Assembly: GCA_937944055.1 (NCBI GenBank)
Contig: CALDZJ010000005.1
Coordinates: 1-64,000 of the forward strand
From: an uncultured Verrucomicrobiales bacterium
GTDB lineage: Bacteria > Verrucomicrobiota > Verrucomicrobiia > Verrucomicrobiales > Akkermansiaceae
Length of the DNA stretch: 64,000 nucleotides
Direction: 5' to 3'
The notes under the pieces were generated by a model, which was not told where the DNA came from, did no database searches, and worked only from the letters and a program-made list of their open reading frames with translations. Positions 14,145 through 50,595 of this stretch are shown here, in pieces. Numbering within the stretch: position 1 is the stretch's first letter; each line of letters starts with the position of its first letter. Made by a program: the position numbers and the translations under genes.

Positions 14145-15516
14145 AGCGGTAAACCAATGGCTTGATGCGGCCCATGTGCGATCTTTGGCAGAGGGCTTAC
14201 TCGTTCCAAATCCCCATCAAAGAGGATTCGCGAGCGAGAAGATATTCGGAGCCTCCTTTGAGGGATACGCCGAGCAGGCTGAAAAAAAGGAAGCGGTGAG
14301 CTCGCTCGCTCGTCAAAGTCTTTCCGACGCTCAAAACCGAGCAGTGTCATCTGGGATTCTTCGCGCTCGAGAAGGAAGCGCGACCTCAAATCCCGCGAAT
14401 CCCCCGCAAGCAAATCCCCCGCAAGCGAGTCCTGCGCAAGCAAATCCCCCGCAAGCGAGTCCTGCGCAAGCGAGTCCTGCGCAAGCCACTGCTCCAGCCG
14501 CTCCAGTAGCCACCGCTCCAGCCGCAGCCGCAGTAGCTGTAGCGCCAGCTCCACCGCAGCCTAGCCTTTCGACTCCAGAGCCTGCGGAACGCGCGCCTCA
14601 AAGTGCTCCTCAAAGCGCCCCTCCAGAAAAGCGAGCGTCCGAGCAGGCCCCCGCAGCTTCTCAGAGCCCAGCGGCCCCAGCTCCAGCCGTTGAGCAAGCT
14701 TCTCTCGCAAAGGAAGAGACGCTAAAGAGCGGGGAAGATCTTCACAGAGCGACTCAATCCACGCAGTCCACTCAGCCTAAGGAGGACAGTCCTCGTTCTG
14801 ACTCAGGTTCGTCCGTGCCGCTTGAGAAACAGAAACGAGCAACTGTGACAGTGAGGCCATCCCGATCAGGAGGGGAAACTGAGGCCACGTCCACGCTCCC
14901 TCAATTTGCTCAAATTCAAGCGCCTGCCCAAGCGCCTGCCCAAGCGCAAGCTCAAGCTCCGCTTCAAGCTGAGCCACCCGCTCAGTTAAAGGCTCAATCA
15001 GGAGCTGCTTCGGCTCCCAAGACTTCCATTGAGTCTCCTTTTAAAATTAGTTCGCAGGCCGCGGCTTCCTCTCGTGTGGCGGGTGACTCCTCGCCGATGC
15101 AGGACTCCTCGCCACCCGTGCGCGAGGCCTTCCGCCCACTCCCTCTCTCTACTCGCCTACATGCTTTTGGGATCTGGTTAAAGGAGCAGATCCCGACTCG
15201 TTCTTACTTCATCTGTGATCGACATGGCCAAATCGTGGTGGATGAGGTAGGGAGTGATAAGTTGGTAAAAGTAGCCCGCACCCTTGCCCATGCCTCTAGC
15301 AGCGCAGGGAGACAAGTGGGCGAGGAGCAGAACCTCGGCTCGCTTCACGTGAAGATCGGCGTCGATAAAGTCATGGAAGTGGTTCCGCGCCAGTCCCATT
15401 TCGGCTTGGTCGTGCTCGGCATCATCGTGCAGCGGCCTCTTTCCCGTGATGCGGTGGCATCGGTTTCGCGGGCCTTAGGCACTGCGCTTGCAGAGCCATC
15501 AGCGCCTCGTAAGTGA
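14134..15516 (+). CDS. Pro/Ala-rich protein with roadblock/LC7-like C-terminal domain
   Basis: A 460-residue protein starting at the ATG at 14134, inside the end of the ParA gene. Residues 1-80 are ordinary and partly helical. Residues 85-330 are low-complexity Pro/Ala/Gln/Ser, with six NPPQA/SPAQA repeats. Residues about 335-455 form a compact domain with the pattern of roadblock/LC7 proteins: YFICDRHGQIVVDE, a helix, a LGSLHVKIGVDKV strand pair and FGLVVLGIIV. Roadblock proteins regulate small GTPases or P-loop ATPases, so this one is a plausible partner of the upstream ParA. Its last 18 bases overlap the convergent ABC gene. The domain call is moderate; the disordered linker is plain. Confidence 0.65.
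   Translation: MQSEAVNQWLDAAHVRSLAEGLLVPNPHQRGFASEKIFGASFEGYAEQAEKKEAVSSLARQSLSDAQNRAVSSGILRAREGSATSNPANPPQANPPQASPAQANPPQASPAQASPAQATAPAAPVATAPAAAAVAVAPAPPQPSLSTPEPAERAPQSAPQSAPPEKRASEQAPAASQSPAAPAPAVEQASLAKEETLKSGEDLHRATQSTQSTQPKEDSPRSDSGSSVPLEKQKRATVTVRPSRSGGETEATSTLPQFAQIQAPAQAPAQAQAQAPLQAEPPAQLKAQSGAASAPKTSIESPFKISSQAAASSRVAGDSSPMQDSSPPVREAFRPLPLSTRLHAFGIWLKEQIPTRSYFICDRHGQIVVDEVGSDKLVKVARTLAHASSSAGRQVGEEQNLGSLHVKIGVDKVMEVVPRQSHFGLVVLGIIVQRPLSRDAVASVSRALGTALAEPSAPRK
14398..14487 (+). repeat. Six tandem 15-bp repeats encoding NPPQA/SPAQA
   Basis: Six in-frame 15-base units alternate between two near-identical versions (aatcccccgcaagcg and agtcctgcgcaagcg). Third-position identity between copies suggests recent slippage expansion inside the linker-coding part. 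Confidence 0.85.
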
Positions 15517-49363: not shown

Positions 49364-49555
49364 AGAGAAAGTTTAATGCGATGAAAGAGGCGAGGACTGA
49401 TGCAAGGCGATGAGCCCCACTTTGGGCAAGCCCCAAGTCACGAGAATGTTAAAAAAAATCTCATTCTATGACTTATAGGTGAATTTAGGGCACTTTTCAG
49501 CCGAATGGATCAATTCCTCTTGCCGTCTTAATTCATGAACTGTTACCAACGCGCC

Positions 49556-50242
49556 ATGAAAGCTCTTGCGACTCTCGTCATCTCTCTCACTCTCTCCCTT
49601 TTCTCAAGTGCTCAAACGGCGGAGGAGATTATGAGTTCCGTTCGTCAGGTCGCGGTGCTTCAAGGAGACCAAGACCTTAACGGAGTGATTCGCAAAGGGG
49701 CTCAAAAAACCCCACTGACCTTGTTCCTGCGAGGGAAAGATATTCAATTCGCCCTCAATGGAGGAGCCGAGCGCTTCCACCTGCGTCTCAATGAAGATAG
49801 CCAGCAGTTACGGGAGCTCGTCGGCGGGAGATCAAACCCATTTCCGCCAGCCAAAATTTCTGCCCCGATCGCTAACACGGACGTCAGCTATGAAGACCTA
49901 GCCCTCACCTTTCTCTACTGGCCCAATCCCCGCATCATCCAAGAAGAGAAAATTGAAGGGCAGCTGTGTTGGCGTCTCCACGTAGAGAATCCTCAGGCAT
50001 CCGGCCGCTACCGTCAGGTGAGTGTCTGGGTCTCTAAAAAGCAACGCGCCCTCATGCGAGTCGTAGGATACGGACCTCGTCCAGACTCAGTCGCGATCAA
50101 GCAATTTGAAATCACCAAGGTCATGAAGGCCAATGGGGTTTACACCGTGAAGACGATGAAGGTCAGCAGCTTCGGGAAGGATCGCCGCGTGAACGGCATC
50201 ACCTACCTCGAATTTAAGAAGCCCAAGCGCAAGGCGCGTTAG
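49556..50242 (+). CDS. LolA-like outer-membrane lipoprotein-sorting family protein
   Basis: A 228-residue exported protein from the ATG at 49556 (MKALATLVISLTLSLFSSAQ signal peptide; an earlier ATG at 49535 is in frame). The mature part is a beta-sheet wrap of the LolA/LppX type seen in proteins annotated outer membrane lipoprotein-sorting protein: DVSYEDLALTFLYWPNPRIIQEEKIEGQLCWRLHVENP, then QVSVWVSKKQRALMRVVGYG and VYTVKTMKVSSFGKD. It probably carries a lipid in the periplasm. The stop codon is part of the first unit of a 21-bp tandem repeat array. Confidence 0.7.
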   Translation: MKALATLVISLTLSLFSSAQTAEEIMSSVRQVAVLQGDQDLNGVIRKGAQKTPLTLFLRGKDIQFALNGGAERFHLRLNEDSQQLRELVGGRSNPFPPAKISAPIANTDVSYEDLALTFLYWPNPRIIQEEKIEGQLCWRLHVENPQASGRYRQVSVWVSKKQRALMRVVGYGPRPDSVAIKQFEITKVMKANGVYTVKTMKVSSFGKDRRVNGITYLEFKKPKRKAR

Positions 50243-50380
50243 AGGCCACGCAAGGCGCGTTAGAGGCCACGCAAGGCGCGTTAGAGGCCACGCAAGGCGC
50301 GTTAGAGGCCACGCAAGGCGCGTTAGAAACCACGCAAGGCGCGTTAGAAACCACGCAAGGCGCGTTAGAAGCCGCGCAAG
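50228..50380. repeat. 21-bp tandem repeats between two convergent stop codons
   Basis: Seven copies of a 21-base unit, each containing caaggcgcgttaga, at exact 21-base steps (core starts 50230, 50251, 50272, 50293, 50314, 50335, 50356), and a degenerate eighth. The first copy contains the TAG stop of the LolA-like gene; the last holds the TAA stop of the convergent lipoprotein gene. Since 21 is a multiple of three, every copy keeps a stop codon in both gene frames. The first five or so copies have gaggcc and later ones gaaacc. Confidence 0.95.
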
Positions 50381-50595
50381 ATGCTCTGAATATTCCGCAC
50401 GATTCCTACGGTGGAAGCCGTGTTCTGGATCGAGCGGGTCACATTACCGTTGCCGATTCTGCTTCCGCTGTTGGCTCCGTTCGCTCCACCTTGTGGGCCT
50501 GGAGCAGGAGTCGCTGAGTTCGAGGCACAGCTGGAAAGGGCGGTGAAGGAAAGGGCGAGAGTTAAAAGGAAAGCGGGAGAGGAGAAATTTTTCAT
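50365..50595 (-). CDS. Small lipoprotein of unknown function
   Basis: A 76-residue protein with a lipoprotein signal ending in ALSSC (about residue 23), then a short Gly/Asn/Ala-rich linker (TPAPGPQGGANGANSGS) and a C-terminal helix-like NVTRSIQNTASTVGIVRNIQSIL. No family is recognised. The ATG at 50595 begins the signal peptide (MKNFSSPAFLLTLALSFTAL). Its stop codon TAA lies within the last unit of the tandem repeat array. It may be anchored in either membrane. Confidence 0.55.
   Translation of the reverse strand: MKNFSSPAFLLTLALSFTALSSCASNSATPAPGPQGGANGANSGSRIGNGNVTRSIQNTASTVGIVRNIQSILRGF

Follow-up and report, generated by a model that had tools for sequence, protein, structure and literature searches.

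A 21-bp tandem array between two convergent genes of an uncultured Verrucomicrobiales bacterium and its probable origin in a four-base overlap of stop codons

Convergent genes can overlap by 4 nt at their ends, and four tetramers are possible in such overlaps, namely CTAA, TTAA, CTAG and TTAG (PMC2174442). Stop codons can also be covered by repeated sequences, as in Beggiatoaceae, where TAACTGA heptamer repeats run over the stop codons of genes. These repeats form one dispersed 7-nt family, present at many loci and providing stops in all three frames, for which a translational role was proposed (PMC4679880). The locus described here is a 21-bp tandem array that carries stop codons and lies between a LolA-like gene and a small lipoprotein gene. 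It was found in a stretch of 64,000 nucleotides from an uncultured Verrucomicrobiales bacterium (assembly GCA_937944055.1, contig CALDZJ010000005.1), which is referred to below as the window. The array is very probably a lineage-specific minisatellite that replication slippage produced where the two convergent genes meet, and near-neutral in its effect. The features of the locus, with the basis on which each was assigned, are listed below.

49535..50242, + strand: gene of a LolA-like outer-membrane lipoprotein-sorting protein, 235 aa, with its last four codons and TAG in unit 1 (Pfam PF17131, E 3.6e-11)
50227..50233, + strand: left GCGCAAG of a 7-bp direct repeat, in the LolA-like coding sequence (sequence; collapsed junction)
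50228..50380, no strand: 21-bp tandem array, seven units of types A A A A B B C followed by CGCAAG (Tandem Repeats Finder and unit comparison)
50239..50242, no strand: first TTAG double-stop tetramer, supplying the TAG of the LolA-like gene (sequence)
50365..50368, no strand: last TTAG double-stop tetramer, supplying the TAA of the lipoprotein gene (sequence and relatives)
50365..50595, - strand: gene of a small predicted lipoprotein, 76 aa, ending SILRGF-stop, with its TAA in unit 7 (homologues at the same junction in the congeners G010 and G013)
50374..50380, + strand: right GCGCAAG of the 7-bp direct repeat, in the lipoprotein coding sequence, approximately codons L-R of SILRGF on the - strand (sequence; collapsed junction)

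Tandem Repeats Finder describes the array by a period of 21, 7.3 copies, 96% matches, no indels and a score of 264. It consists of seven full units and a final CGCAAG of 6 nt. Units 1-4 all read CGCAAGGCGCGTTAGAGGCCA, while units 5-6 end in ...GAAACCA and differ from them at two positions. Unit 7, which ends in ...GAAGCCG, differs again and is the variant nearest to the sequence of relatives, so that the order of unit types along the array is AAAABBC. When the window was randomised 100 times by a first-order Markov model, the top score was 69 and the mean of the maxima 45.7, against 264 for the real sequence. The seven exact-period copies pointed out in the initial annotation are therefore far beyond chance, and the other structural claims made there were borne out as well. 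The array emerges from the 3' end of the LolA-like gene, unit 1 encoding R-K-A-R-stop of the open reading frame at 49535-50242, and the TAA of the opposite gene is given by the last copy, as TTA at 50365-50367 inside unit 7. Moreover, every 21-bp unit contains TAG in the frame of the + gene and TAA in the frame of the - gene. Two things account for this regularity: the unit length is divisible by three, and the copied segment would itself be a double-stop junction. The genes make use of the first TAG and the last TAA alone; the five double stops between them are met by neither gene.

A single junction wrongly expanded during short-read metagenome assembly would also appear as a tandem array, and the genome, in 108 contigs and with 92% completeness, looks like a metagenome bin. 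An artefact of this kind is nevertheless most improbable. The unit types A, B and C differ in ordered blocks, and the longest exact repeat within the array, 79 nt, is below the usual read length. In addition, assembly errors usually collapse such arrays rather than expand them.

The 21-bp unit was not found elsewhere in the genome (2.59 Mb, 92% complete, 108 contigs) when up to 3 mismatches were allowed. Its seven copies occur at this locus only, and the scatter at non-gene ends that the initial annotation proposed to look for was not observed. Among 26 congeners searched for the unit, only two isolated matches with 3 mismatches appeared, fewer than for a reversed control pattern, and no array was present. 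In a sample of approximately 304 kb of the genome, the array at 50228-50380 is the strongest and the sole long one at a gene junction; the other arrays over the same threshold are weaker and lie mostly within open frames. A second strong tandem array, with a 15/30/45-bp period, is located in the window at 14395-14486, inside a 462-aa open frame, and probably represents a low-complexity region of a protein.

Both genes bordering the array look real. The LolA-like protein has matches in 54 of the 58 genomes searched, and the small lipoprotein shows an LSSC lipobox (identified by eye), although no Pfam family was matched by its 76 aa. The next gene past the lipoprotein gene combines amino-acid-kinase and ACT domains, an architecture by which it is an aspartate kinase, and it provides synteny. 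The array covers only the last codons and the stop of each gene and otherwise lies outside coding sequence. Four of its six reading frames are open throughout, because the unit length is a multiple of three, and one of them, another + frame, gives QGALEAT repeats with a heptad period. It is conceivable that the array encodes such peptide repeats, either appended by a frameshift or forming a separate small protein, but this is extremely unlikely. The open frames through the array are without ATG, the open stretch of the QGALEAT frame starts at 50218, no more than 10 bases ahead of the array, and the peptide repeats have no counterpart in relatives. This reading was accordingly dropped.

The origin of the array becomes clearer when its place is compared with the corresponding junction in relatives. 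In two congeners, G010 and G013, the same LolA-like and lipoprotein genes stand tail to tail and share a 4-nt overlap of stop codons, CTAA in G010 and CTAG in G013. In the latter, the LolA-like gene ends with GGG CGC TAG and the lipoprotein gene, on the other strand, with CAA GGC TTC TAG. Removal of six units, or 126 bp, from the window leaves GCG CGT TAG and CGC GGC TTC TAA, joined by the tetramer TTAG. This collapsed window aligns without gaps to G013 at the junction and is collinear with G010 save for a single in-frame difference of 3 bases within the lipoprotein gene. The + stops are TAA in G010, TAG in G013 and TAG in the collapsed window; in the same order, the - stops are TAG, TAG and TAA, and the homologous C-termini of the lipoprotein are TRTIQNTASTVGIFRNLQSIFRSGF, TRSIQNTASTVGIVRNIQSILQGF and TRSIQNTASTVGIVRNIQSILRGF, each followed by the stop. 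A YTAR tetramer is thus common to the stops of both genes in all three cases. In the present window the genes no longer overlap: their ends, which share 4 nt in the reconstructed ancestral junction, are now 122 bp apart. As far as the aligned sequences tell, what has been amplified into the repeated units is the former double-stop junction. Within the array, unit 7 agrees through its GAAGCC with the G013 junction and looks ancestral among the units.

Not all members of the genus have the overlap: in two close relatives, G026 and G004, the corresponding gene ends are separated by a gap. The sequence that follows the LolA-like gene was free of tandem arrays in 20 congeners and 6 other genera of the family, in each of which at least 150 bases of it were available. 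The array is therefore a change particular to this lineage, as opposed to a conserved element. In one further genome (G016, L010/L038), the contig stops 13 nt past the homologous part of the LolA-like gene, and a repeat at that place could be the cause.

These junctions also bear on the suggestion that the array serves as a two-way transcript end. According to this reading, the units would together make up a region in which both converging transcripts are terminated or paused. The position of the array, exactly between convergent genes which would otherwise overlap, fits such a role. Furthermore, each unit contains a short ACGC/GCGT stem, and two units folded as single-stranded DNA do somewhat better than shuffled sequences (z -1.58 and -2.05). 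On the other hand, the terminator scan gave no intrinsic-terminator-like site at the array, and a GC-rich hairpin with a U tract was not found there on either strand. Folded as RNA, the whole array gave unremarkable energies for either strand when set against shuffles (z +0.47 and -1.38), and Rfam returned no match. In other words, neither the terminator and promoter scans nor the RNA and DNA folding nor Rfam gave grounds to regard the array as a terminator or as an RNA element. A conventional solution exists in a relative with separated genes: in G004, a terminator-like 13-bp stem with a U tract lies on the - strand between the gene ends (L041:3731-3760), whereas the scan of G026 (L039) gave short candidates only. 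Since G010 and G013 do without any spacer and the array is confined to this lineage, a functional bidirectional transcription end is very unlikely, and the suggestion is left unsupported by these sequence-based predictions.

The preferred reading, a minisatellite born by slippage, is further indicated by a short direct repeat at the collapsed junction, which can be written as AA-GCGCAAG-GCGCGTTAGAAGCC-GCGCAAG-ATG. The two 7-mers are 21 bp apart, the arrangement to be expected of a substrate for replication slippage. One belongs to the coding end of the LolA-like gene and the other to that of the lipoprotein gene; because both lie in conserved coding sequence, the right GCGCAAG is not merely a partial trailing copy of the unit. 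The exact repeat is absent from G010 and G013, and it probably arose in this lineage, or was sharpened later.

The following course of events may be proposed. Before the expansion, the LolA-like and lipoprotein genes would have overlapped by 4 bases, with TTAG read as TAG on one strand and as TAA on the other. Mispairing between the GCGCAAG copies, 21 bp apart across the junction, could then have duplicated 21 bp, and the longer repeat thus created may have grown to seven copies by further slippage or unequal recombination. Point changes would have gathered during this expansion, giving the unit types C, B and A. With both stops in every copy, the copy number would leave both proteins unchanged, and the one effect to be seen is the greater distance between the gene ends. 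The states before and after the expansion are seen; what we infer is that slippage took place, in which order the units expanded and that the array is near-neutral. The arrangement of identical units in blocks (AAAABBC) agrees with local duplication, which predicts such blocks. The small ACGC/GCGT stem that the units can form might help slippage.

The initial annotation had offered, as its second possibility, a slippage product under the constraint that each copy retain stops for both genes. Slippage is supported by the unexpanded junctions in relatives and by the 7-bp repeat that brackets one unit. The constraint has to be understood differently: it would be inherited and not selected copy by copy, because the duplicated segment corresponds to the ancestral 4-nt stop overlap. 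The striking double stop of each unit is then an inheritance from a four-base overlap and not a designed device. It might still be supposed that slippage at convergent stop overlaps is a selectively useful way for compact genomes to part gene ends, which would reduce transcript interference while proteins stay unchanged and let the copy number tune antisense overlap; this we consider very unlikely.

Stop-bearing arrays of other kinds were encountered in a scan of 289 genomes of the order for stop tetramers spaced by 21 bp, which is biased in that it selects for such tetramers. A class of similar 21-bp arrays was considered and dropped, as most of those found lie within open frames according to a simple ORF rule. 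By the same rule, 21-bp arrays in three other genomes of the family (L050 in G204, L055 in G035 and L056 in G234) lie in short open frames. The genome G204 has 21-bp arrays on several contigs (TTAAGCCTCCGTAATCGACGC), and a 21-bp unit containing GGTCGTACCAG is common to two genomes of one genus. The scan also returned heptamer arrays with tetramers of the TTAG, CTAG or TTAA type (L045, L046, L051, L060, L063, L067 and L068), with units such as TTAATCC, GGTTAGA and GCTAGAT, and an array of 129 copies of GCCTCTA in G040. Seven of ten heptamer loci, a sample biased by selection for stop tetramers, have one of their ends no more than about 10 nt from the 3' end of a predicted gene or contain its stop; the arrays L046 and L067 lie between convergent genes.

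The locus offers a clean case, with the unexpanded site available in sister species, in which stuttering of DNA copying separates overlapping gene ends and leaves both proteins untouched. Repeats of this type are ordinary, and no new mechanism comes to light here; what is uncommon is how clearly the origin can be traced. In practice, the array could serve as a strain marker.

Of the systems described so far, the TAACTGA repeats resemble the array in that tandem repeats carrying stops extend over the 3' end of a gene. They are dispersed, whereas the array is a single-locus structure of 21-bp units between convergent genes, with an unrelated sequence. The relation to 4-nt convergent overlaps is closer, as the reconstructed junction has TTAG and the relatives have CTAA and CTAG, that is, three of the four possible tetramers (PMC2174442). 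Unlike in those overlaps, here the overlap has been multiplied and the genes no longer overlap. By its head-to-tail units, few variants and single locus, the array resembles intergenic bacterial minisatellites or VNTR loci, and it shares with those formed by slipped-strand mispairing a correctly spaced short direct repeat and absence from sister species. On a comparison of one genome per species, it belongs with the intergenic minisatellites, and it differs from the typical ones in that its unit contains a convergent double-stop tetramer.
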